Positions 9,785-23,694 are shown, numbered from the stretch's first letter. The stretch: DNA of 24,559 bases from a virus (IMGVR_UViG_3300006735_000240:1-24559), one strand, 5' to 3'. Notes: a model not told the origin generated them from the sequence alone. Program-made: numbers and translations.

Positions 9785-10429
9785 TTAAGTTACAGGCGTA
9801 CGAGACTGTCCAGAACGGTAGTAGTCTTGCCGTAACTTACCGTCTCCAGTGCGCTGTAGTAGTGTAATAGCTTGTAAATAACGCTTCTCATACATAGCAA
9901 CTACATCGGCCTCACCCTTCATAAAACGAATTGCTTCCATAAGTGCGCCGTTTAGAAGTGCAGTATCAAAGTTGTCGCCCAGATATGTGCCTCCAGCGGT
10001 GACTATTGATGTGGGGTATTTTGCATATATGTGTTCTATCTCGTAATTTTGATCTGGAGTAGGTGCAAGCAAGAAGCGCACGTTAGACCCTACTGTGCTG
10101 TGATAAGCATAGAATTTAGGTAGTCCATATTTTGCACTAGTGTTTACAGGGTAAGCATCACGTAAGAAGTTAACGTCTTTATTTAACAGGTAAGTTGTGG
10201 TGCTACTGCTAATTACAGCAAGACTGTAAGTGTACAGATAACCATCTGGCGTAGTGTAATGCTTGTTAGTAGCAGTCAAAGGGCCGCTATCCACATTACG
10301 CATAGCTGGTAACTCAACAGTGTTATGGATCATCTGTTCCGCTTGCTGTGCAAACAAGGCGTGTTGATCCGCTGTAAACGTCTGTTCACATATATCCTCA
10401 ACATTTGCCTTTAAATTAGTATAATTCAT
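9785..10429 (-). CDS. Head-tail adaptor-like protein (SU10 adaptor-type)
   Basis: 214 aa. The N-terminal helices (NYTNLKANVEDICEQTFTAD) and AEQMIHNTVELPAMRNVDSG (about 30-50) are followed by YTTPDGYLYTYSLAVIS, a beta region with FLLAPTPDQNYEIEHIYAKY and C-terminal helices ALLNGALMEAIRFMKGEADVVAMYEKRY. This helix-beta-helix plan, with the AE-x-x-I and L-P-x-x-R elements, is that of adaptor proteins in SU10-like podoviruses. These sit under the portal and join the tail. It comes soon after a second protein of the same general type (10998-11678). The ATG is three bases after the stop of the preceding small gene. Confidence 0.65.
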   Translation of the reverse strand: MNYTNLKANVEDICEQTFTADQHALFAQQAEQMIHNTVELPAMRNVDSGPLTATNKHYTTPDGYLYTYSLAVISSSTTTYLLNKDVNFLRDAYPVNTSAKYGLPKFYAYHSTVGSNVRFLLAPTPDQNYEIEHIYAKYPTSIVTAGGTYLGDNFDTALLNGALMEAIRFMKGEADVVAMYEKRYLQAITLLQRTGDGKLRQDYYRSGQSRTPVT

Positions 10430-10432
10430 AAT

Positions 10433-10660
10433 TTACCCCATAGGACCGCGAGCCATAAAACCTTTGGTTGCTGCACCTGCGCCACGTATTTTGATGCCGC
10501 CTTTAGCTGCACCTTTTGACCGTACCATTTTGCCTGCTTTAAACCCCGGCACTCCACGACCTTTGAGAATGTCAGCTTGTGTGACCTTGTTATCCCCAGT
10601 AAGATCAGGAAATCCGCCTGTACTTGTTTGCTTGCTCATGTTTGCCCTCGTCATTGCCAT
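10433..10660 (-). CDS. Small basic protein with dockerin-like calcium loop and C-terminal RGAG motif
   Basis: 75 aa from the ATG at 10660, or 68 aa from the ATG at 10639, which has the better ribosome-binding site (GAGG, six bases upstream). Residues 19-30 (DLTGDNKVTQAD) fit a dockerin/EF-hand calcium loop: Asp, Thr, Asp, Asn, Val, Thr and final Asp at loop positions 1, 3, 5, 6, 8, 9 and 12. LKGRGVPG follows. The C-terminus KGGIKIRGAGAATKGFMARG is basic and shares R-G-A-G with the 274 aa protein and R-G-x-G with the 88 aa protein. I know the 'DLTGD-KVT--D-L-GRGV' phrase from many marine phages, where it has no assigned role. It lies between the zinc-ribbon gene and an adaptor gene, so a virion role is plausible. 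Confidence 0.68.
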   Translation of the reverse strand: MAMTRANMSKQTSTGGFPDLTGDNKVTQADILKGRGVPGFKAGKMVRSKGAAKGGIKIRGAGAATKGFMARGPMG

Positions 10661-10668
10661 TGTTTTAC

Positions 10669-10995
10669 CTAAGAAGTTGTTACTGTTACTGAACCTAGAG
10701 ATGCGTTCATTACAAACTCTAGTTTGTTATCCAAAGACCCTGAGTATCTTAACGCTCTACTTTCTGCATAACCTACAAAATCTGGTCTAGGATCTCGTAT
10801 TGCTTGTGGATCATCCACTGGAAACATACCTAGCTTTAATTGTGGATGATCGTAATCAAAACAATAAGGACATGCCTTTAAGTTAGTATTATTACCTTTT
10901 CTTATTATATTACGCAAATCACGTAATTTATATCTAAATCCACATATATCACACTCTGCGATAGCTCTTTTTATGGATGCGAACCTATTAGACAT
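10669..10995 (-). CDS. Zinc-ribbon-like protein of the head-tail gene cluster
   Basis: 108 aa. Two Cys pairs, C15-x2-C18 in CDICGF and C42-x2-C45 in CPYCF, form a likely zinc ribbon of about 30 residues. They are separated by the basic YKLRDLRNIIRKG stretch. The region after it, DHPQLKLGMFPVDDPQAIRD, then PRPD, is the signature I know from a widespread phage protein that lies near the head-tail connector genes. The C-terminal half has no cysteines and is beta-like. Function is unknown; a structural or nucleic-acid-contacting role at the head-tail joint is possible. AGGA lies seven bases before the ATG, and the upstream adaptor gene ends two bases before it. Confidence 0.78.
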   Translation of the reverse strand: MSNRFASIKRAIAECDICGFRYKLRDLRNIIRKGNNTNLKACPYCFDYDHPQLKLGMFPVDDPQAIRDPRPDFVGYAESRALRYSGSLDNKLEFVMNASLGSVTVTTS

Positions 10996-10997
10996 AA

Positions 10998-11678
10998 TTA
11001 AATCCTAGCAACTCTCGGTATGTATCGTTCAGAAGTCTTCTCTCTATCTTCACCTGCAGCTAAAGTATATTGTTCATCATAAGCTGCTTTTAACATAGCG
11101 ACCCTATCAGCCAGCTCTGGTGTTTTCATGGCTATGTGATACGCCAAACCAGCAACTAAACAAGGTAAGAATCTGAATACCACGTCTGCTGTTTCAACAC
11201 CGCTACCAGCGTCTTCTATCCTTCTCATCCTAAAATACACAAACGTATATGCCTGATCAGGCACAGGCCATAGGTTTACTCTGGGCGTAGCTAATCTTTC
11301 TACAAACACCTGTATTGGTCTACCGGTTGTTAACTTGTTAGGGATAGAGGCGTAAGTACTAACACCAATACGACTTATGGTGAGATCAGACTGTGTGGCT
11401 GTATTGCCTGCATTTGTGCGTATAACTTGATCTAACAGGTCTATAGTGTCTGCAGGTAAACTATATTGAGCTGTTCCTGCAGTGACGGATATCGTACCGC
11501 TATCAATAGTCCACATATTGATACCACGGTTCTGCCACTCAATAGTCATCAGGTTCATGGATCTACGAGCTGTACGAAGGTCATAACCTGACCGCATTTC
11601 ACGACCGGCACGCTCCCACGCTTCTTCCGCAATTTCAGTGAAATCCATATCAAATGCGGTGGTGCCTGATGTAGCCAT
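10998..11678 (-). CDS. Head-tail adaptor-like protein (SU10/P22 gp4-type)
   Basis: 226 aa. MDFTEIAEEAWERAGREMRS, then YDLRTARRSMNLMTIEWQNR and INMWTIDSG (about 10-62) form the N-terminal helical pair and turn typical of adaptor proteins of marine podovirus-like phages. A beta section follows (ISVTAGTAQYSLPADTIDLL, RPIQVFVERLATPRVNLWPV), then C-terminal helices (FLPCLVAGLAYHIAMKTPEL, VAMLKAAYDEQYTLA). These proteins form a ring beneath the portal and act in closing the head and joining the tail. AAGGA lies eight bases before the ATG. It precedes the zinc-ribbon gene and the second adaptor-like gene. Confidence is good for the family, less so for the exact position in the virion. Confidence 0.75.
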   Translation of the reverse strand: MATSGTTAFDMDFTEIAEEAWERAGREMRSGYDLRTARRSMNLMTIEWQNRGINMWTIDSGTISVTAGTAQYSLPADTIDLLDQVIRTNAGNTATQSDLTISRIGVSTYASIPNKLTTGRPIQVFVERLATPRVNLWPVPDQAYTFVYFRMRRIEDAGSGVETADVVFRFLPCLVAGLAYHIAMKTPELADRVAMLKAAYDEQYTLAAGEDREKTSERYIPRVARI

Positions 11679-11954
11679 TTACTTTTTCCTTCTTAACGAC
11701 TTTACACGTCTTGGTTTACCCGCCGGTTGTCCAATTCTCTTCTTCTGTGCAACCCTACTACGTTTTTGAGCGGCTGTCATTTCTCCAGTAGTTTTAGGAG
11801 TTTTTGAAGAAATACGCTTGGAAGGACGGCAATAAGGAGTTCCGCGCTTTTCGCCCTTCTTTCTGCCACACGCCTTGCCAGTGGATACATCTTTCCAATC
11901 CTCCTTAAACCAGCGCTTTAAGGCTAGACCACTTTTTGTTTTCCTGACTGCCAT
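11679..11954 (-). CDS. Basic cysteine-containing protein of a phage/giant-virus family
   Basis: 91 aa, strongly basic. The N-terminal LALKRWFKEDWKDVSTGKAC, GRKKGEKRGTPYCRPSKR and SSKTPKTTGEMT blocks form a pattern (W-F-x-E-x-W-x-D-V, C-G-R, Y-C-R-P, K-R, K-T-P-K-T) that I know from short proteins of phages and large DNA viruses (DUF5872-like; the domain name is from memory). Two cysteines (29 and 42) could bind metal or form a disulphide. The tail after 60 is mostly Lys, Arg, Ala and Gln, ending in RRVKSLRRKK. Unknown function. It sits in a run of basic small genes just before the first adaptor gene, and its stop meets the next start in a TAAATG junction. Confidence 0.7.
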   Translation of the reverse strand: MAVRKTKSGLALKRWFKEDWKDVSTGKACGRKKGEKRGTPYCRPSKRISSKTPKTTGEMTAAQKRSRVAQKKRIGQPAGKPRRVKSLRRKK

Positions 11955-11961
11955 AAATAAC

Positions 11962-12228
11962 TCACACGTACTTTGTAACTTTACGACGGCTAACTATTCC
12001 ACAACCTCTAGCTATGTTACCGTTGCTGGCAGGTCTCTTTCTTTTACGTCTAGCTAGACCACCATTGTCAAAATTTACAACGCCCCCAGTGGCTTTCTTC
12101 TTTTTGCTGCCTTTGCCGTAGTTAGCTGCGCCGACCTTTCTACATTTCGCAATAGCACCTGAAGCATAAGCGCTTGGAAATACTCTATAGCGAGCTTTTA
12201 CTTTGTGATAACAAGCGTCTTTAGGCAT
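11962..12228 (-). CDS. Basic protein with C-terminal RGCG motif
   Basis: 88 aa with 24 Lys/Arg and only two acidic residues. The N-terminal MPKDACYHKVKARYRVFPSA, then YASGAIAKCRKVGAANYGKG, is a block I recall as conserved in marine phages, with cysteines at 6 and 29. A Lys run (SKKKK) and a Gly/Asn segment link it to the C-terminus, GNIARGCGIVSRRKVTKYV. The last part carries the R-G-x-G motif also present at the C-termini of the proteins at 12511-13338 and 10433-10660. A GGAGG site lies 10 bases before the ATG, which overlaps the previous gene by eight bases. Probable nucleic-acid or virion-binding protein; no activity can be assigned. Confidence 0.72.
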   Translation of the reverse strand: MPKDACYHKVKARYRVFPSAYASGAIAKCRKVGAANYGKGSKKKKATGGVVNFDNGGLARRKRKRPASNGNIARGCGIVSRRKVTKYV

Positions 12229-12511
12229 TTTTTCTAGCCCTCCTTATGCTTTCTTTACCTTGCCGAAATATCTTTGCAACTTCGGTCTTACCCATGACTT
12301 TGGCTCTTTGTTCACCAACAGTAAGTATCTGTATCTTTCTGGCAAAAGGCTTACTTACTTTCTTTACCTTTGCCACAGTAGCTCTAGCGTCAGCAGGAGT
12401 AGCAAACTTTATACCCACGGTATCCTTGGGATTCTCATCAGTATAAAGCCTGCGACCACTACCTTTTGGCTTTTTGCCTGTACCTACTCTTGGGTCTTTC
12501 TTTCTTCGCAT
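12221..12511 (-). CDS. Conserved basic small protein, unknown function
   Basis: 96 aa. It starts MRRKKDPRVGTGKKPKGSGR and has RLYTDENPKDTVGIKFATPA, DARATVAKVKKVSK and ARKIQILTVGEQRAKVMGK. A mostly helical, Lys/Arg-rich protein with no cysteine and no membrane span. The phrase KPKGSGRRLYTDENPKDT and the following I-K-F-A-T-P-A-D-A-R are familiar from uncultured marine phages, where the protein has no role assigned. The start shares one base with the stop of the 274 aa gene (TAATG), so translation is coupled. It may belong with the other basic small proteins of the 9.8-14.5 kb cluster. Confidence 0.68.
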   Translation of the reverse strand: MRRKKDPRVGTGKKPKGSGRRLYTDENPKDTVGIKFATPADARATVAKVKKVSKPFARKIQILTVGEQRAKVMGKTEVAKIFRQGKESIRRARKNA

Positions 12512-13338
12512 TAGATGTACTTCGCTTTCCGCAGTCCTTTTCTCTCAATACCTGCTCCGCGAATCTTACCACCTTTTTTCATGCTTTTTTTCATGCCACC
12601 CATAGCCATGCCTTTTTTCTTCATGCCACCCATGGAAAAGCCTTTTTTCTTCATACCACCAGCAGCCATACCTTTTTTCTGTTTGTCTACCATTTTGATA
12701 GCAGCGTTTAGACCTCCAGCAGCCATACCTTTTTTCTTCATGCCACCCATGGAATAGCCTTTTTTCATGCCACCGGCTTTCATACCCATACCCATGTAAG
12801 GAGTTCCTTTGCCACCAGTGCCAGTTCTGCCCGAACCTACATTCGTGGCTGTTTTTGCGGCGGCTCTCTTTTTTCTATCCTCATCAACTATACGCCTACC
12901 AGACGAACCTAGAGGAATCATTGGAGTGCTTCCAGCTTTTGGCTTTGGAGCAGTAATACCTTTTTGATTAGGCATTACTTTTTTAGCTGCAGGTTTTGTA
13001 GGCTTCGGCTTTGGCGTAACCGTAGGAGCCTTTGGTCCTGCACGAGTCTTACCCTGTTGCTTGTTAAGATAATCACGCAAGGACAAACCTGATTTCTTCA
13101 ACTCTTCTGCTGTTACCGCAGCTTTTTTCTTACCTGATTTATCGGTAAAAGTGCTAAGTCCACGCCGTTTTGCCTCTGCAATAGTTTTGGCTGGGCCTGT
13201 CTTTTTTCTTGGGCCGCTCATTGCACCGGGTGACATACCTGAACGTCTCCCACTCATTGCACCGGGTGACATTCCTAATTTCTTTTTGTTTCTAGGCATT
13301 CTAGGCAGTCCACCGTCCATTGCATCTTCTCTAGCCAT
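12511..13338 (-). CDS. Met/Gly/Lys-repeat protein with C-terminal RGAG motif
   Basis: 275 codons from the ATG at 13338, which follows AGGAAGAA; the longer frame to 13461 would overlap the upstream gene by 131 bases and is unlikely. The N-terminal part has two copies of MSPGAMSG, at about 22-29 and 33-40. A Lys-rich helical section and a Pro/Lys-rich linker follow. From about 181 to 256 there is a run of G-G-M-K-K-K-G-M-A/S-x-G-G units with Met nearly every fourth residue. The C-terminus GGKIRGAGIERKGLRKAKYI ends in the R-G-A-G motif shared with two other small basic proteins here. The repeats suggest disorder and many basic contacts, so a virion or genome-contacting role is plausible. No enzyme motif. 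Confidence 0.7.
   Translation of the reverse strand: MAREDAMDGGLPRMPRNKKKLGMSPGAMSGRRSGMSPGAMSGPRKKTGPAKTIAEAKRRGLSTFTDKSGKKKAAVTAEELKKSGLSLRDYLNKQQGKTRAGPKAPTVTPKPKPTKPAAKKVMPNQKGITAPKPKAGSTPMIPLGSSGRRIVDEDRKKRAAAKTATNVGSGRTGTGGKGTPYMGMGMKAGGMKKGYSMGGMKKKGMAAGGLNAAIKMVDKQKKGMAAGGMKKKGFSMGGMKKKGMAMGGMKKSMKKGGKIRGAGIERKGLRKAKYI
12571..12795 (-). repeat. Degenerate tandem repeats coding G-G-M-K-K-K-G-M units
   Basis: On the plus strand the unit CATGCCACCCAT (or CATACCACC) followed by a CCTTTTTTCTTC tract recurs at least six times with spacers of 12 to 40 bases. The longest spacer holds a non-repeat stretch coding AAIKMVDKQ. Unit boundaries and the T-rich tracts make this a likely slippage site, so its length could vary between related phages. 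Confidence 0.8.
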
Positions 13339-14017: not shown

Positions 14018-14263
14018 TCATCTTTCGGTTTTGCTCCATGCAAGATTCTCCTCGTATTGTCTACCTGTGAAATCTTCCCACATGGGTTTTAACATAGTAT
14101 GCAATTCATCTATTTTTTGACTATTAGCGTCAGTCTTTACAGCCATGATAGCTATATTCTTATCTACTTCTATTAGAGTAGAGGATATCCATGTAAGCCC
14201 AGCTACGCATACGCCTACAAAAGCGACGAAAAGAGTGCCTGTTATAAACTGTTGTCCTAACAT
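14018..14263 (-). CDS. Small single-span membrane protein with coiled-coil tail
   Basis: 81 aa from the ATG at 14263. The in-frame ATG at 14269 touches its GGAG and is too close, whereas the second ATG has GGAG six bases upstream. One membrane span lies at about 9-26 (TLFVAFVGVCVAGLTWIS). The rest is a soluble helical segment (VDKNIAIMAVKTDANSQKID, then ELHTMLKPMWEDF) with a charged end. This topology, a short span followed by a short coil, suits a holin-like or virion-associated membrane protein, but the gene lies far from the lysis genes. Function unknown. Confidence 0.6.
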   Translation of the reverse strand: MLGQQFITGTLFVAFVGVCVAGLTWISSTLIEVDKNIAIMAVKTDANSQKIDELHTMLKPMWEDFTGRQYEENLAWSKTER

Positions 14264-14547
14264 TTCCATCTCCGTCTTGCCTGACGCAACCTACTATTAG
14301 GATTCTTAGCTGCCTTTGGAAATTGTTTCATCTGACCTGCAGAACGAGCGCAGTATGATTTACGCCGTTTAGCAGCTTTACTACCAGCTTTTACTTTGCC
14401 TGTTACAGCGGTCTTTAGTTTGCTGCCGGGGTTGTCTTTACGGTATTTAGCAACACCTTTTTTAGTCATCCCAGCACCAGACTTAGTAGGACGCTTATGT
14501 CCTCCACCAATGGTGTGGCCCTTCATTGTGCCTTTTCGCCTAGCCAT
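14257..14547 (-). CDS. Very basic small protein (DUF6321-like)
   Basis: 96 aa with 31 Lys/Arg and one acidic residue. The blocks GMTKKGVAKYRKDNPGSKLK, TAVTGKVKAGSKAAKRRKSY, CARSAGQM and the C-terminal RLRQARRRWKC match the pattern of a small conserved phage protein family that I associate with DUF6321 (name from memory): T-K-K-G, N-P-G-S-x-L-K, K-R-R-K-S-(F/Y)-C-A-R and a final (R/K)-W-x-C. Its ATG overlaps the upstream stop by eight bases and has no clear ribosome-binding site; an ATG seven codons further in has AAGG before it. A DNA-associated or virion-packaged role is plausible from charge alone. Confidence 0.7.
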   Translation of the reverse strand: MARRKGTMKGHTIGGGHKRPTKSGAGMTKKGVAKYRKDNPGSKLKTAVTGKVKAGSKAAKRRKSYCARSAGQMKQFPKAAKNPNSRLRQARRRWKC

Positions 14548-16034: not shown

Positions 16035-16943
16035 TTATGCTCCGGGTGAACCGAAGATACCCAACGGGTCAGATACACCGAACGAGTAACGCTCACGGGC
16101 TTTGTACCGGCTGTTGCCAGTGCTAAAGTCAGCATCCATAGCGGTAGTCATTGGACTACGTGTGAAGTGCTTGAGGCCGTTTGGAACGTCAGTCATAAGG
16201 AAGAAAGCGTCTGTATCAGTCAAGTAGTGATTGATTACATAGCCTTCTGGGATAGAACCATTATTGCGAAGTGCATTAAGGTCGTTATCCGCTGTACCTA
16301 CACGTCCTTCAGTTTCTAACAAACGAGTTGCCACAAACTGTAGATTCGGTGGAATAACTAACTTGCGTGGTCTAGCAGCAATCAGCAAACCGCGCTCGTC
16401 AGTCCAACCAGCGATCTGAATAACGGCGGCTTCAAGAGAAGTCTCGTTAAGGTCAGCTGCAACTGCAGGCTCATTAGAGTTTGTACCACCATTTACAAGT
16501 GGATGGTCAGTAGCACACAGAGACTTACCATCTCCATATGTAGTGCCAGCAGCAAAAGCATTATTCAGGATAGTTGCTGCCTTAACTTGTTTTGTGTATG
16601 CCATCGCACGAGCCAGTGCTTTAGTATAACGAGATGACAGTGAGTCATACAGGTTATCTTCAATAGCCTCTTCAGTAATTGAAAAGCCCATTGCAACTGT
16701 TTCGTGTGAATAGCGAGCGGTGAACGCCTCTTGTGCATTGTCATATTCGATGGCAGAGCCTTCGTTTTTGACTGGTGCTGCTGAGAAGCCCGATAATTTG
16801 GTCTCCTCTTCAAAAGATCTATCAGAAGTCTCTGATTCAAAGATCTCTGCGTGTTCTTCACCGTACTTTGCGTACTCCAATCCGAACAAAGCGTTCAGGC
16901 CGGGAAGGAGTTCTTTAAGTAGTTGTGCGCGTGAAATAGCCAT
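16035..16943 (-). CDS. Major capsid protein (HK97-fold type)
   Basis: 302 aa. Builds the icosahedral shell. The sequence has the expected elements: an N-terminal helical arm (AISRAQLLKELLPGLNALFG), an extended loop (LSGFSAAPVKNEGSAIEYDN), a spine-helix region YTKALARAMAYTKQVKAATI (about 105-124), the P-domain strand RPRKLVIPPNLQFVATRLLE (about 197-216) and the terminal KARERYSFGVSDPLGIFGSP. It resembles Mu gpT-type head subunits and the capsid proteins of marine podovirus-like phages. It has the strongest ribosome-binding site in the window, AAGGAGGA seven bases before the ATG, as suits a protein made in hundreds of copies. It follows a scaffold gene and a capsid-associated gene, and is followed by the terminator at 15995-16027. 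Confidence 0.92.
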   Translation of the reverse strand: MAISRAQLLKELLPGLNALFGLEYAKYGEEHAEIFESETSDRSFEEETKLSGFSAAPVKNEGSAIEYDNAQEAFTARYSHETVAMGFSITEEAIEDNLYDSLSSRYTKALARAMAYTKQVKAATILNNAFAAGTTYGDGKSLCATDHPLVNGGTNSNEPAVAADLNETSLEAAVIQIAGWTDERGLLIAARPRKLVIPPNLQFVATRLLETEGRVGTADNDLNALRNNGSIPEGYVINHYLTDTDAFFLMTDVPNGLKHFTRSPMTTAMDADFSTGNSRYKARERYSFGVSDPLGIFGSPGA

Positions 16944-17621: not shown

Positions 17622-18071
17622 TTAACCCCCCGAGCCAAAAGTAACTTTTGTTTTACGCTCATGAAAGAGCGGCATCCGAGGATCGTTTTCTCTCATAAGG
17701 TTGTTGTCAACTGACTGCATCTGGCCTTGCGTTTGTTGTTCGTAATACGCCGTGCGTTCTGCAATAAGTTCTTCTGGAGCTTTACAAAGAATAAGACCAC
17801 CAATTACAACATTATCTTTGAACTTTTCGTTCTCAATAGTAACTACTGTAATTTCGGGGTGATCTGAAGCTTTTACAGGCTCCCAACCTTCACGAAATTT
17901 TGAAGAAACATTAGTGGCGTCAGTTTGCCCCTGCGTGGCGACTCTAATCCAGCGAAATGCGTAACCCGGCTCGGGATTCGGTGAGGGCAAGGTCTCTGGC
18001 CTTTGCCAAGCTCTAGTACGGGTCGTTTTTTCACGAGTGGTCTGTTCACGTTCTATACGGTTTTCAGCCAT
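17622..18071 (-). CDS. Conserved head-gene-cluster protein of unknown function
   Basis: 149 aa. A basic, Thr/Arg-rich N-terminus (MAENRIEREQTTREKTTRTR) is followed by a small globular core: GYAFRWIRVATQGQTDATNV, KFREGWEPVKASDHPEITVV and NVVIGGLILCKAPEELI. A helix (ELIAERTAYYEQQTQGQMQS) and a Gly-rich end complete it. I recall this FRWIR ... REGWEPV pattern from marine phage head genes, without a named function. It is translationally coupled to the scaffold gene by a one-base TAATG overlap with GAGGA upstream, and precedes the capsid genes, so it probably helps head assembly. Confidence 0.65.
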   Translation of the reverse strand: MAENRIEREQTTREKTTRTRAWQRPETLPSPNPEPGYAFRWIRVATQGQTDATNVSSKFREGWEPVKASDHPEITVVTIENEKFKDNVVIGGLILCKAPEELIAERTAYYEQQTQGQMQSVDNNLMRENDPRMPLFHERKTKVTFGSGG

Positions 18072-19087
18072 TAGTTTTTCCTCATTTCTTCTGCAACCTT
18101 TTGGGCGTATAATTCTAAGGGAACTCCAAGTCGTTTAGCTATAGCTACTTGTGTTTGCGTTAGTTTGACCTTTTTAGGTGCTACGCTCCGCGTTGCGGGA
18201 GCAACCACATTAGCTTGTTTCGGCTTCTCAACCTCTACTTCCTCTGTAGTGTCCTCAAAATTATCTGGGAACACTTGGCGCATACGAGCGTTTAACTTCT
18301 CGTAGTAGTCGTCGCTTCCGATAACAACGTTATCTTTAGCTAGTTTATTATGCACACCCATGGCGAAACTTGTCATTTCATCGTCAGATCCAAACCACGG
18401 ATTGGACGATGCCCACTCTGTAGCTTTTGGATCTGCCACCGGTTGGGTGGGTTCTGGTAACACATTAACAGGAGTTTCTTCTTCCTGTAAAGCCGGAAGT
18501 TTGAAATTATTTATCCTATCAGCTTTAATCTTAACAGCGGTTAGCTTTTCTTGTGCTTCCACGACTGCTTCTGCGTCACCAGACTCATATGCTTCCTTAT
18601 AACCTGCTTTAGCAGCATTTATTTCAGCCTCAACAGATTTTTTAGCTTGATCAAGCATGGTTGACTGATTTTTACCAACCGTGCCTTTTAATTCTTTGTT
18701 TTCATCAACAAGGCGTTGAGCAAGTGATTCTAACTCTTGTCTTTCGCGCTGTGCTTTTTCTTTTTCACGACGTTCATCATGGTAGCCTTTACTGAAGTGC
18801 TTAATTCTGTTGCGAACTTTATCAGAGTATTCATCAAGTTCTTCATCAGTGACATCAGCTGGCGGCTCAGAAGCTTTGCGGTTTCTATCAGCTTCTGGAG
18901 TATCATTAACGACTTCAATCTCAAGTTGGTCATCATTATTATTATCTGCACTCGCAGGTTCTGGGTCAGACTTCTTAGCTGCTTTACCAGAAACATCAAC
19001 TTCAATTGCATCTGAACTCTCCACTTCTATTTCTGGTTTTGTACCTTTTTCATCAGGAAACTCATACTCAACTTTTTGAAACGCCAT
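18071..19087 (-). CDS. Putative scaffolding protein
   Basis: 338 aa with the usual design of a scaffold: an acidic, low-complexity N-terminus (1-95, rich in Glu, Asp, Ser and Asn), a long charged coiled-coil-like helix (about 85-150, HFSKGYHDERREKEKAQRER and the next helix) and a second Lys/Ala-rich helix, a Pro-rich segment, and a basic C-terminal end (KKVKLTQTQVAIAKRLGVPL, then a helix ending EEMRKN). In related phages the basic C-terminus contacts the capsid protein and the scaffold leaves the procapsid before packaging. It lies between the portal group and the capsid gene, as in many podovirus heads. The ATG has AGGAG six bases upstream. Confidence 0.75.
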   Translation of the reverse strand: MAFQKVEYEFPDEKGTKPEIEVESSDAIEVDVSGKAAKKSDPEPASADNNNDDQLEIEVVNDTPEADRNRKASEPPADVTDEELDEYSDKVRNRIKHFSKGYHDERREKEKAQRERQELESLAQRLVDENKELKGTVGKNQSTMLDQAKKSVEAEINAAKAGYKEAYESGDAEAVVEAQEKLTAVKIKADRINNFKLPALQEEETPVNVLPEPTQPVADPKATEWASSNPWFGSDDEMTSFAMGVHNKLAKDNVVIGSDDYYEKLNARMRQVFPDNFEDTTEEVEVEKPKQANVVAPATRSVAPKKVKLTQTQVAIAKRLGVPLELYAQKVAEEMRKN

Positions 19088-19096
19088 TATTAACTC

Positions 19097-19474
19097 CTAA
19101 ACTTTGCAAATTCCACGAGGGTCAGGAATGACCGCTTCTATAGAATCGTCGTTCATCAAACGAAACTCTTTGCCGTTGACCTTAAAACGAGTGCCAGTAT
19201 TCATACGGAACATCACATAGTCACCAACCTTACACCATGCGCCTGTAGGGAATCGCTCTTTGTCGCTATAGGCGGCATCACCCATATCAATGACTACACC
19301 CATAATAGACATGATGTATTCTTTGTGTTTTTCACTGTCAGTTTTTAAGAGAGTGCTACCCTCGTAATAATCACTTATATCAGGCAGTGCTATCAATAAA
19401 CGATAGCCACAAGGTTTAGGTAGTTGTGCGTCCCAATCTTCGTCAGGAGTAATTTTTTTAACTGCTTCAGTCAT
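19097..19474 (-). CDS. GroES-like co-chaperonin (Cpn10 family)
   Basis: 125 aa. Three ATGs stand in a row; the third (19474) is favoured because GGAAG lies six bases before it but touches the first. The core matches the GroES beta-barrel: PCGYRLLIALPD (like the R-V-L-V strand of GroES), GVVIDMGDAAYS (G-x-V-x-x-V/M-G), WCKVGDYVMFRMNTG (V-K-V-G-D-x-V-x-F), KVNGKEFRLMNDD and a final IEAVI strand. The segment EGSTLLKTDSEKHKEY corresponds to the GroES mobile loop, including a hydrophobic T-L-L. It would cap a host GroEL to fold phage proteins such as the capsid protein, as T4 gp31 does. Neighbours are portal and scaffold. A proper GroEL partner was not seen in the window. Confidence 0.82.
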   Translation of the reverse strand: MTEAVKKITPDEDWDAQLPKPCGYRLLIALPDISDYYEGSTLLKTDSEKHKEYIMSIMGVVIDMGDAAYSDKERFPTGAWCKVGDYVMFRMNTGTRFKVNGKEFRLMNDDSIEAVIPDPRGICKV

Positions 19475-19664
19475 CATCATCTTCCATATAATTGCGCGAG
19501 AGGTCTGTTACATAATTTTTGCAGGCATCTAGACCCCGTATCATGCCCGTTATCTCCTTGTACTGAGGGAAGTCTTTGGCTCCGCCCCCTCCAAGAAACT
19601 GTAATGCTGTAGATTTATCTTCATCTAGTTTTTCAATAAGCACGTCAAAGACGGTTTTAGCCAT
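19467..19664 (-). CDS. Small acidic-tailed protein next to the portal gene
   Basis: 65 aa. A helix-rich protein: MAKTVFDVLIEKLDEDKSTA, a Gly-rich turn (GGGGAKDF), a second helix (YKEITGMIRGLDACKNYVTD) and an acidic tail EDDDD. I know this pattern from a small gene next to the portal in marine podovirus-like phages; its role is unknown, though a size and position like this would suit a small head-assembly or portal accessory protein. AAAGAGA stands before the ATG, which is two bases after the portal stop. It overlaps the co-chaperonin start region by eight bases or more. Confidence 0.65.
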   Translation of the reverse strand: MAKTVFDVLIEKLDEDKSTALQFLGGGGAKDFPQYKEITGMIRGLDACKNYVTDLSRNYMEDDDD

Positions 19665-19666
19665 AG

Positions 19667-22126
19667 TTAGTCTCTTTTAAGTTGTGTAATTATTTTAGAT
19701 GCTTCCAAGTTGGTTTTATCTTTATCTCTTCTTTTTTCAGCCTGCATCTTTACGCCAGCTTTTTTAGCGTCAATACCAATCTCTAGTTTATCAAGCTCCA
19801 ACTCTCGCTCTTTAAGCTGTGCATCTGCCATATCTTTAGTGAGTTTGCGTTTCATATCTTCCTGTCTGAGTTGTATATCCGCAGCATCTTTCTGTGTTTT
19901 ACGCTGCACTTCTGCTCCTTTGATCTGCATTTCCTGTTGTTGGAGCTGGAACACAGGGTCTTGCGCTTGTTGTTGTGCAGCCTGTTGAGCCGCTTGCTGT
20001 TGATTTGCCTGTGTAAGTTGTTTGCCAGCCTCTGCAACAACGCGTGCAAGCTGTATTTCTACATCTTCTGGAAGCTCTTCGTTTGGTGCTGGTAGTGGTG
20101 CGCCAAGCTTTTCTTCTATCTGTTTGCGATACTTGAACCCTAGATGCTCTGCAATGTGAGCCTGTAATGCCATCATTATCTGTTGCGCTTGTGGATTCTG
20201 TCCAATCATCTGAGCAACTTGTGGATCTTGCATAAACGACATGTGTGCGCCAATGTGAGCATCATGATCTTGGTAGATAAATGCTTTCATCGGCTTACCG
20301 ATCAACGCGTTCATATTCTCGCTAACAGGATCTGCCGGTTTCAGGTCTTCCTTAAGTGGAACAAGTTTATCTGCGTTCTTTACTCCAAGAACTTCAATCA
20401 TCTGCCTGTGTAATTGTGGCAGGTCATATATCTGCGGAGCCTGTGACGACATCTGTAATACAGCCTGATACTGCACCACACGCTGTGCCATGGTAGAACT
20501 GTTAGGGTCACTAACAGGAATTACATCCACCATCATATAATCAGTCTGACGAGCAGATACCTCTCCCCGTGCAGGCTGATACGAATACTCGGCTGACGCG
20601 TATTCTGCCATTAAAGCTTTAAGGAGTTTAAACTCCTGCTTCATGGCGTAATGAACACGGGCTTGTACTGCAGCCATAGGCTTTAGTGTACGCTCCAAAA
20701 GCGCCAGCGTTGTGCCTACCGGTGCGTTAGCCGACATGTCCGATATGTTCATGTCACTGATCGCGCCCAGTCTGCGGCCTTCGTTAGTGATTTTATCCAG
20801 CAATGCCAGAAGTGTCTGTGATGGTTCTTTGTAAGGTAGCGGCATAATATTGTCGCGTATACTACCTGACGGTACATCAACATCCTTGAACTCACCCGGT
20901 TCAATTGGAGTGTCATCCCCCTTGATACGCAGCCCACGGGACTTTAATCCACCGGGCAAATTAGCGAGCGTACCGGCATCGACAAGTTGGCGTATCAAGG
21001 AGGTTCCTGCTCGTGCATACCCACCGATAATATGGATAAGTCCGAGTCCATAAAAACCAAAACCCGGTACATAGGCATAATGTACGAAGTGTTGGCGCTT
21101 TAGCATAAGTGTGTCTTCAGAGTTCCAGTTTCTGTATATAGACAGAATCTCACCTGAACCACGTTCCAGAGTCACAACGTAAGGTTTTGCAATCTCATCG
21201 TCTGAATCATCAAACCCCTCAATCACAAGATCAGCATGTATTTCATACAGCGCATATCTGTCATCATCGGTAAGAGAATAACCACCCTCTTCAGCTTTAC
21301 GTATCTCAATGTCAGAGTGGTATGGTTGCGGATCGCTTAGTTCTATATCACGGTAAAATCTGCTAACCTGTAATTTCTTAAGTTCATTTTTTGTCTTACG
21401 CATGACGTGAGTAACACGCTCTGCAGTCTCAATGTGAGATGCACTGTAGGGGACAATGCAATCCTCTGCAGGTATAAACAAAGCGACCTGTCGTCCTATA
21501 TTAGGGTCGTGATAAACTTTCTTAAACGCGGAACCTGCCAGTCCAAGGCTGTAGAGCAGGCGCTCATGCTCTGGACGATACTCAATCATGTTCTCTGTCA
21601 ACTCGTAGTTCATGTCAGCTTTGACACGGGCAGCAGATTCAGTCTTCTCTTTTGTCTCTTCGCCAAGAATCTTGGTCTTCACCGGCCCCATGGCAGGAAA
21701 CGTCTCACTCATAGTCTCTGCTTGGAATCTTATGGCTGCTTCTGCCAACACTGTAGAGTAAACTCCACAGGCGCCTTCCCAAGGATCAGTACGCTCTTCA
21801 TACTTGAATCCTAATACATCAAGACCTTTAACGAATGTATCCGCCCACTCAGTGCGGCTGTCCATGTCAGAATCTATCAGACCAACAAGTTCGTCAGATA
21901 AAGACGCTAGGTCGTTATCTTCCATAGCTTCTGCCAGATTACCATCGAACGGTACATCTCCAGATTCACTACCCGGAATTATTGTTATCTCAACGCTACC
22001 ATCATCCAGAGTCACCATCTCAGGATTTACGATCTCAATCTCCAGATCCGCAGATGGCATAGCACCTTCTGGTAAATCTTCATCTATACCCATTGGAGCT
22101 TGGTATAGTCCTTTTTCAACTGCCAT
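19667..22126 (-). CDS. Portal protein
   Basis: 819 aa, in the size range of P22-type portals (725 aa) and longer than most. It would form the dodecameric channel through which DNA enters and leaves. The N-terminal part is acidic; a core follows with ERTDPWEGACGVYSTVLAEA (about 113-132), VKADMNYELTENMIEYRPEH, LYSLGLAGSAFKKVYHDPNI and FVHYAYVPGFGFYGLGLIHI (about 351-370), and ISDMNISDMSANAPVGTTLA, typical of portals of marine podovirus-like phages. The last 130 residues are Gln/Ala and Lys/Glu-rich and form a long coiled coil (QANQQQAAQQAAQQQAQDPV and the Lys/Asp/Gln helix after it). That is like the barrel-forming C-terminus of P22 portal. It follows the large terminase by 11 bases. Confidence 0.9.
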   Translation of the reverse strand: MAVEKGLYQAPMGIDEDLPEGAMPSADLEIEIVNPEMVTLDDGSVEITIIPGSESGDVPFDGNLAEAMEDNDLASLSDELVGLIDSDMDSRTEWADTFVKGLDVLGFKYEERTDPWEGACGVYSTVLAEAAIRFQAETMSETFPAMGPVKTKILGEETKEKTESAARVKADMNYELTENMIEYRPEHERLLYSLGLAGSAFKKVYHDPNIGRQVALFIPAEDCIVPYSASHIETAERVTHVMRKTKNELKKLQVSRFYRDIELSDPQPYHSDIEIRKAEEGGYSLTDDDRYALYEIHADLVIEGFDDSDDEIAKPYVVTLERGSGEILSIYRNWNSEDTLMLKRQHFVHYAYVPGFGFYGLGLIHIIGGYARAGTSLIRQLVDAGTLANLPGGLKSRGLRIKGDDTPIEPGEFKDVDVPSGSIRDNIMPLPYKEPSQTLLALLDKITNEGRRLGAISDMNISDMSANAPVGTTLALLERTLKPMAAVQARVHYAMKQEFKLLKALMAEYASAEYSYQPARGEVSARQTDYMMVDVIPVSDPNSSTMAQRVVQYQAVLQMSSQAPQIYDLPQLHRQMIEVLGVKNADKLVPLKEDLKPADPVSENMNALIGKPMKAFIYQDHDAHIGAHMSFMQDPQVAQMIGQNPQAQQIMMALQAHIAEHLGFKYRKQIEEKLGAPLPAPNEELPEDVEIQLARVVAEAGKQLTQANQQQAAQQAAQQQAQDPVFQLQQQEMQIKGAEVQRKTQKDAADIQLRQEDMKRKLTKDMADAQLKERELELDKLEIGIDAKKAGVKMQAEKRRDKDKTNLEASKIITQLKRD

Positions 22127-22137
22127 GATATTGACCC

Positions 22138-23694
22138 CTAATAATATCCGCTACTACGACGCTTAAAGTACCGTTGCTCTTCTGGCTCGTCACTAGGCAG
22201 ACGTATAAAGCCTCCCTGACGAAACCTCATGAGAGCCATAACAGTTGCATCAACCAAGTCATCATGACTCATAAACGGAAATCCTGCAATCTCTTCTACC
22301 ACTTCTTCAGCCCAACGAGTCTCTGGAACCCAGCAGAGTCCAGATGCCACAATATCTGATACAGAGTTTAAACGAGCCAACTTATCTCCTGAACCTCTGT
22401 GTGGGGTATATTCTTGTACGGGTAATCCAGACCTACGCATCTCCTGATACAGAGCCGTGCCAGAACTTTTCTTCTCAACGATGAACGCGTCTGGGTCCCA
22501 CTCTTCGTATTCTTCCATAGCAAGTTCTTTGAGTTCTGGGAACTCCATACGCCTCTTTATGCTGTTTAGCAATATAATATTATAGTTGTCCTCTTCTTCA
22601 TTCAAAAACACACCCCATGTCGTCAATGCTGTGTAATCAGCACGATTGTGTGTTTCTGCTGCCGCATCTAGAGACATGATTACGTATTCACACTCGGGCG
22701 GCTGCTCTTCTTTCCATATACTCCACCACTCACGTTTGACCAGTGAGGCTTCTTCTGCCGTAGGTTCCTGCTGATACTGGGCGTTCCACTGAAATGCTGG
22801 CATAGATGCCTTTGTGCGTAGTAACGCGTTAAGGTCAAAGAACTCAGGCCACAGTGGTTTCTGCTCTGATTTTTGTGTTTTCTTGTTTACGGTATCCAGT
22901 ATAGCAGGAAACTCCATGATCTCATACTGATCAGCTCGTTCGTTCTGCCCCATGTCTCTGGTCACACGCCCAGTCAGGTCATCCATATGCCAACGTGTCT
23001 GTATGATAGCCACACGGCCTCCCGGCATCAGTCGTGTCCGCGCTCCGAAGGTGAACCACTCATATGCTTTTTCAAATACTTCAAAGTTTCCGTTAATGAC
23101 ATCTTGTTCGGAATGGGGATCGTCAACGAGCAGGAGGTCAGCACCACGACCAGCAATAGAGGAGCCAATACCACACGCATAATACTCACCTCCTGAATTA
23201 GTATTCCATCGTCCTGCAGACTTTGAATCTATAGCCAGCTTAACAGTAGGAAATATAGAATTATACTCATCAGTAGATATCAGGTTACGAACCTTACGTC
23301 CAAAGTCTACCGCCAGATCAGTGGTGTGTGACACCATCATAACCTTCTTGTTCGGGTTACGCCCTAAGAACCAAGCAGGGAAAAATATAGAAACAAGCTG
23401 CGATTTACCGTGTCTGGGAGGTATATTAACGCATATTCTGTCTTTTTTACCCTCTGCAATGTCCATAAGCATGTCTGCAAGCATCCTATGGTGCTTACCG
23501 ACGATATAATCAGGCTGCATACGCTTACAAAACTCAATCAGGTCGTCATACGCCGCCTTATTAACCCTTCTAGAGTCCAACTCATCGACTAACTTATCAA
23601 TCTCTACAATTTCGTCTACAGTATACTGATCTAGGTTGTCCAGCATCTGCTGAACCTCATCTTCAGTAAAATCTACAGCTAACGCAGATGTCAC
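22138..23694 (-). CDS. terL: Terminase large subunit (packaging ATPase/nuclease)
   Basis: 518 aa, starting at a GTG that overlaps the stop of the previous gene by four bases (GTGA). The Walker A motif is IPPRHGKS at 91-98; Walker B is LLLVDD at 187-192; the coupling motif IQTRWHMDDL follows at 231-240. The C-terminal RNase H-like nuclease has the three acidic sites expected: IMSLDAA (Asp343), FIVEKKS (Glu407 within AFIVEKK) and SHDDLVDAT (Asp478/479). It would cut concatemeric DNA and pump it into the head through the portal encoded next. Length fits marine podovirus-like enzymes. No frameshift or missing catalytic residue seen. Confidence 0.96.
   Translation of the reverse strand: MTSALAVDFTEDEVQQMLDNLDQYTVDEIVEIDKLVDELDSRRVNKAAYDDLIEFCKRMQPDYIVGKHHRMLADMLMDIAEGKKDRICVNIPPRHGKSQLVSIFFPAWFLGRNPNKKVMMVSHTTDLAVDFGRKVRNLISTDEYNSIFPTVKLAIDSKSAGRWNTNSGGEYYACGIGSSIAGRGADLLLVDDPHSEQDVINGNFEVFEKAYEWFTFGARTRLMPGGRVAIIQTRWHMDDLTGRVTRDMGQNERADQYEIMEFPAILDTVNKKTQKSEQKPLWPEFFDLNALLRTKASMPAFQWNAQYQQEPTAEEASLVKREWWSIWKEEQPPECEYVIMSLDAAAETHNRADYTALTTWGVFLNEEEDNYNIILLNSIKRRMEFPELKELAMEEYEEWDPDAFIVEKKSSGTALYQEMRRSGLPVQEYTPHRGSGDKLARLNSVSDIVASGLCWVPETRWAEEVVEEIAGFPFMSHDDLVDATVMALMRFRQGGFIRLPSDEPEEQRYFKRRSSGYY

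Follow-up and report, generated by a model that had tools for sequence, protein, structure and literature searches.

A selected, transferable C-terminal RGxG tail on small basic proteins of ocean and lake phages, a candidate label for particle entry

Why should proteins with unrelated bodies, encoded close together in one phage genome, end in the same kind of tail? The question is raised by a viral DNA of 24,559 nucleotides (IMGVR_UViG_3300006735_000240), the whole of which we call the window. A preliminary description had noted three basic proteins there that share a Gly-rich end with an R-G-x-G motif, and had proposed a common signal. The three proteins do end as described, with ...KKGGKIRGAGIERKGLRKAKYI in 12511-13338, ...NIARGCGIVSRRKVTKYV in 11962-12228, and ...GGIKIRGAGAATKGFMARGPMG in 10433-10660; their respective C-termini are KIRGAGIERKGLRKAKYI, NIARGCGIVSRRKVTKYV, and KIRGAGAATKGFMARGPMG. 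The proposal of a common signal on unrelated bodies is strongly supported by a fixed register, purifying selection, exchange of tails, and the occurrence of the tails in one phage family. As judged from the sequence comparisons presented here, the tail is a real, strongly selected, transferable C-terminal tag, apparently undescribed, with a candidate functional role.

The head gene block and its tailed proteins

Gene calling and profile search indicated that the structural block of a podovirus-like phage fills the - strand of the window, on which all the window genes named here lie. The block includes TerL (22138-23694), the portal (19667-22126), a GroES-like protein (19097-19480), a probable scaffold by our own reading (18071-19087), and the major capsid protein (MCP; 16035-16943; N-terminus MAISRAQLLKELLPGLN), which matched the Phage_capsid_4 and Mu-like gpT families, which we take to have the HK97 fold. 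Tail genes are also in the window, and a run of small basic genes lies between MCP and two SU10-type adaptors (10998-11678 and 9785-10429; both Pfam PF24175). By portal, the closest named relatives are HTVC027P, 023Pt_psg01, and HTVC023P, with freshwater, Roseobacter, and Caulobacter phages farther away.

The protein at 12511-13338 is a basic, low-complexity protein of 275 residues with MKKKG-x-x-GG repeats and an SLRDYLN module; profile search matched it to no Pfam or PHROG family. It ends in a tail that we assign to class A (GGKIRGAGIERKGLRKAKYI, 12514-12573), a class kept in relatives. The protein at 11962-12228 (88 residues) consists of a short helical N-terminal body, a disordered linker, and a class B tail (NIARGCGIVSRRKVTKYV, 11965-12018). 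AlphaFold2 gave pLDDT values of 71 to 81 for residues 1 to 40 and about 40 to 48 for the remainder; the model thus has two short helices, after which linker and tail are disordered. Its body is phrog_727-like, and at a score of 15.0 against a DUF5872 (PF19197) cut-off of 27.5 it is not a member of that family, whereas its tailless neighbor at 11679-11954 (DUF5872/phrog_23735) is one, with a score of 55.8. These adjacent proteins cover DUF5872 profile positions 12-49 (sub-threshold) and 49-111, respectively, and may represent a split or fused DUF5872 pair.

The third tailed protein (75 residues, 10433-10660) is encoded between the two adaptor genes, the second of which lies directly downstream. 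It combines an MCP-like N-terminus (MAMTRANMSKQ, 10628-10660), a dockerin/EF-hand-like stretch (FPDLTGDNKVTQADILKGRGV), and a class C1 tail (GGIKIRGAGAATKGFMARGPMG, 10436-10501). The dockerin/EF-hand-like module (FPDLTGDGKVTQADVLKGRGV) is found here and in contigs L015, L034, and L028, with A, C1, and C2 tails, and also in a tailless HTVC027P protein (L082, 18490-18756). When the three tailed proteins and MCP were compared with solved structures, no significant match was obtained.

Register, selection, and distribution of the tails

The general form of the tail is GG...RGxGxAxxG followed by basic residues, placed at a constant distance from the C-terminal residue. It falls into at least five classes: A, (G)GK(V/I)RGAGIARKGVRPAKMR; B, ARGCGAVMENRRKKTLYT; C1, K(I/V)RGTGAATKGxMARGPM(A/G); C2, RGMGAATRGGK(F/Y)xxx; and D, RGDGIAQRGKT(K/R)G(R/K)xx. 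The three tails of the window thus differ in class (A, B, and C1), and each class is conserved in its own right. The K-Y-(I/V) ending that the preliminary description saw in two of them did not hold as a common feature, being class-specific: class A usually ends in (A/C)K(M/I/Y)R and class B in T-x-Y-(T/V/I).

The frequency of the motif was determined in 80 IMG/VR contigs (L001-L080) picked by their adaptor protein with the tail ignored, which contain 1,098 ORFs on the dominant strand. RGxG occurred within the last 34 residues of 191 of the 1,098 ORFs, against a mean of 33 and a maximum of 46 expected from 200 shuffles of those residues. In this set, 167 of 211 RGxG motifs ended exactly 11 to 13 residues from the stop, and only 17 lay 40 or more residues from the C-terminus. 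Chance is excluded as the source of the tails. Pattern scans of all viral contigs recovered RGMGAATRGGK on 63 contigs and RGTGAATKG and RGDGIAQ(R/K)GKT on at least 120 each. In frame, RGMGAATRGGK lay 3 to 5 residues from the stop in all matches and RGTGAATKG 7 to 8 residues from it in all matches listed; for class D, the distance was 3 residues in 109 of 117 among the matches listed. Across 257 Gb of bacterial and archaeal genomes, the RGTGAATKG pattern was found in 14 stretches, only three of them in register (8 residues from the stop) and the others at random position or frame; the three are on MAG contigs that bear genes of this phage family. A few regex matches were rejected as false positives, e.g., GQWSARKAQLLAKRYKARGGGYR, an endolysin in L194. 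Searched by tblastn against phage records, the tail peptide, a query too short or masked, gave no match, and a text search of 5.39 million open-access papers did not find the tail strings.

The C1 tail is encoded by at least 157 distinct DNA versions, with near-full codon freedom at positions where the residue is 88 to 100% conserved, and in no class are third codon positions much constrained. Since synonymous codons are interchanged with little restriction at residues that do not change, it is the peptide that is under selection. Part of the C1 and D alignments came from pattern matches, so that the searched residues in them are fixed by construction; the same codon behavior was seen outside the search strings and in classes A and B, which come from the unbiased set. 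Within the window, the A and C1 tails differ in codons at most of their shared residues, and so are not a recent duplication.

The tails are concentrated in one part of the genome and in certain clades. In 16 long genomes (54 to 68 kb), all convincing tails lie between the terminase and the second adaptor, and the RGxG ends elsewhere, about five, look spurious. The head module of this family was present on every C1 contig among the matches listed, on every C2 contig, and on 108 of 110 D contigs among the matches listed. The preliminary description named a lack of conservation in relatives as grounds for refuting its reading, and this condition did not hold: conservation of the tails is high in the window clade and in its freshwater-type sister clade. 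In the HTVC027P clade, tails are almost absent. Among contigs with 4.5 kb of sequence downstream of MCP, tails were present in 26 of 26 from the window clade (adaptor-selected) and in 30 of 31 of freshwater type (MCP-based sampling). The HTVC027P clade has kept the bodies, and 77 of its 80 contigs carry no tail at all; the bodies can therefore do without tails. Tail presence is mixed and variable in the HTVC023P group, HTVC023P itself having three to four RGxG tails. On an MCP tree, we counted about seven changes of tail state, one perhaps owed to a spurious ORF: Pag-Yong1, scored as tailed, has no convincing tail, and the ORF in question lies in GC-rich DNA.

Bodies behind the tails

Masked for low-complexity repeats, 583 distinct tailed proteins fell into 172 BLAST body clusters, a number above that of true bodies, since the clustering over-splits. 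In a MAFFT alignment of 102 tailed proteins, only M1, GG, and R-G-x-G-x-A-x-x-G were near-invariant; because these members were chosen by the tail pattern, the core is partly a product of selection, and the finding is that no other column is shared. The bodies are basic, with a median net charge of +0.09 per residue; 78% are above 0.05 and 1% are negative.

The same body can carry different tails or none. The PSAYA body bears a B tail in the window and a C2-like tail in HTVC023P, and is tailless in HTVC027P, in CRP-901 (75% identical body), and in DSL-LC04. The phrog_23735 body, tailless in the window (11679-11954) and in HTVC027P, bears the B tail in L041 and L046. Likewise, the DUF6321 body is tailless in the window (14257-14547) and carries a D tail in relatives (L205, L165, and L261), and three more body clusters bear A and D, or A and C2, tails. 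By these comparisons, the tail is a C-terminal label that can pass from one body to another. Among the bodies, tailed and untailed, several are members of DUF5872/phrog_23735 or DUF6321, families of marine phages and algal viruses; the families are, however, defined by their bodies, and the RGxG tail is an addition that lies outside either model. An algal virus, too, has a DUF5872 annotation (PMC12085832). In CRP-901 (L085, 11542-12062), three small basic ORFs are unannotated in the record, one of them the 75% identical relative of the window's class B body.

The N-terminus of MCP (MAISRAQLLKE, 16911-16943) recurs on small basic proteins of the block, both tailed and untailed. Examples are the C1-tailed protein of the window, MAINRSNLMKEM in L074, and MAISRAQMGSQM in L119; untailed proteins of 45 residues start in the same way (MAISRAQMGKQI), and MCP-like starts were also noted in L013. 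The start MA-[IM]-[ST]-R-A-x-M-x-K-Q was found in only 14 of the 583 tailed proteins, from classes A, C1, C2, and D, and in none of the reversed-sequence controls. The same N-terminus on a capsid protein and on small proteins suggests a shared binding site, and thus suggests that at least part of the set is tied to capsid assembly.

Candidate roles of the tail

Entry into the head, or binding to one partner, appears to be the best fit to the gene position, the capsid-like N-termini, and the precedent of phage T4. Our leading explanation, to which we give a little less than an even chance, is that the tail is a docking signal by which small basic proteins are recruited into the head as it assembles. 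On this view, a flexible Gly/Lys-rich linker joins the small basic body of a tailed protein to a fixed end of 16 to 20 residues (GG..RGxGxAxxG plus basic residues). That end would bind a conserved component of the phage's own nascent head, and would in this way collect several unrelated basic proteins in or on the prohead; from the interior, they could then help to condense the DNA or be ejected with it. We infer the presence of the tailed proteins in the virion, their placement there by the tail, and the identity of the reader. The likeliest reader would be MCP or another core head protein; MCP is favored as the most highly conserved among the head proteins compared (64 to 94% identity to the window across genomes, against 32 to 64% for the scaffold). 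The AlphaFold2 model of MCP has a pLDDT of 38, and we therefore propose no docking site. Against this explanation stand the HTVC027P clade, whose bodies do without tails, the patchy presence of tails in the HTVC023P group, and the small share of tailed proteins with an MCP-like N-terminus (14 of 583). The several tail classes could also mean several partners rather than one. A bolder version, possible but unlikely in our estimate, is a C-terminal encapsidation code, in which classes A, B, C1, C2, and D would each have their own address in the HK97-type head, cargo would be freely swapped behind a constant tag in a manner similar to encapsulin loading, and some cargo would bear a second tag copying the MCP N-terminus.

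The first alternative sees in the tail an end for nucleic-acid binding, RGG-like or protamine-like, that would assist in condensing phage DNA with no specific protein partner. The strong basicity of bodies and tails and the Gly/Arg-rich composition of the latter speak for it, but charge alone does not call for a register held to within 1 to 2 residues, counted from the C-terminus, or for G, A, T, P, and M residues that are near-invariant. RGG-box proteins, moreover, carry repeated RGG/RG motifs, unlike the single C-terminal RGxG found here, and we consider this explanation unlikely.

Docking on the portal, adaptor, tail parts, or outer capsid surface instead of the head interior would account for the C1-tailed gene that adjoins the adaptor genes. 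LysM domains (PF01476, peptidoglycan-binding) occur in two kinds of tailed body (L117, 3063-3683; L141, 1043-1651; L179, 1090-2061). They fit the docking signal favored above, as parts of a protein that the virion would carry to the cell wall, and could also act on the tail side. The genes of classes A, B, and D, however, cluster just after the capsid genes, and conservation is lower in adaptors and portal than in the tails, which makes docking outside the head interior quite improbable in our view.

Binding of the tail to a host protein, as a means of host takeover or a localization signal, would agree with the lack of an obvious reader among genes specific to tailed genomes. A gene-content comparison, a limited search, gave no convincing candidate for a gene that is confined to tailed genomes and is a reader or a protease. 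A 206-residue tail-fibre-like protein (our own reading), a small terminase lineage, and unidentified replication-side genes were confined to tailed genomes, and none made a convincing reader. No protease family was detected among the ten head-module proteins of the window that were scanned, and the suggestion of the preliminary description that the tail might be a processing signal found no support, the limited search having turned up no tail-specific protease gene. A host partner is nevertheless improbable: HTVC023P, which has tails, and HTVC027P, which has none, were both isolated on SAR11 strain HTCC1062, so that the presence of tails does not track the host; the tails are restricted to a single phage family, within which they lie in the head block; and the window clade shares its C1 tail with the freshwater-type sister clade. 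An element of the nucleic acid itself, for coupling to the following gene or as an RNA signal, would suit a stretch that is always at a gene end and often near the next start, but this reading is almost certainly wrong, RNA and DNA elements being ruled out by the codon freedom at fixed amino acids in every class.

The docking signal that we favor has parallels in known systems. The capsid targeting sequence (CTS) of T4 lies at the N-terminus, where the prohead protease cuts it off. As with the CTS, a single phage has one short conserved terminal peptide on several of its unrelated proteins; the RGxG tail, however, lies at the C-terminus in constant register with the stop, is Gly/Arg-rich, and has no sequence relation to the CTS, and no counterpart of the prohead protease was identified in the limited search. 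By analogy, the tail may work like the CTS without being a member of that system. In T4, diverse internal proteins share only the CTS (PMC3012670). The second parallel, in the encapsulins, lies in a short C-terminal peptide on unrelated proteins and in an HK97-type shell gene, here MCP, in the locus of the tailed proteins. Encapsulin targeting peptides are short, extended, and C-terminal, sit on unrelated cargo, and are made alongside an HK97-type shell. The encapsulins differ in being cellular compartments with enzyme cargo; the RGxG tails have no sequence relation shown to their peptides, and shell binding by the tails is putative. These targeting (cargo-loading) peptides are treated, at least in part, in PMC10960027 and PMC8346489.

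A large phage family of oceans and lakes thus probably uses the same tail on many unrelated small basic proteins as a label for entry into the particle. Most small head-block genes of these phages are without a function, and a shared, transferable end offers one handle on the set. If the tail is a packaging label, a reporter fused to about 20 residues would be directed into the head, and virion proteins of unannotated ocean and lake phages could be predicted from the tail by itself; the known loading routes of HK97-type shells would then extend to a C-terminal phage tag. The family includes the HTVC023P-type group, which has been described as the most abundant of known pelagiphages, at about 7.6% of viromic reads (PMC12753301). 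HTVC023P and HTVC027P have the same head module, but HTVC023P is tailed, whereas the HTVC027P clade is practically without tails. In DSL-LC04 (L086), a phage without convincing RGxG C-terminal tails, the motif stands at the N-terminus (MAGRGMGCATRGGG) of a small protein at 24763-24990. Small post-portal proteins of the tail-poor phages end in RGTKRMLKDKKKTATWY (L082, 18767-18958), KGTRRMRPDKKPVKATWY (L083, 18424-18615), and KGQGRVIRSKKTRIC (L086, 18648-18992), which are possibly diverged class B-like tails.
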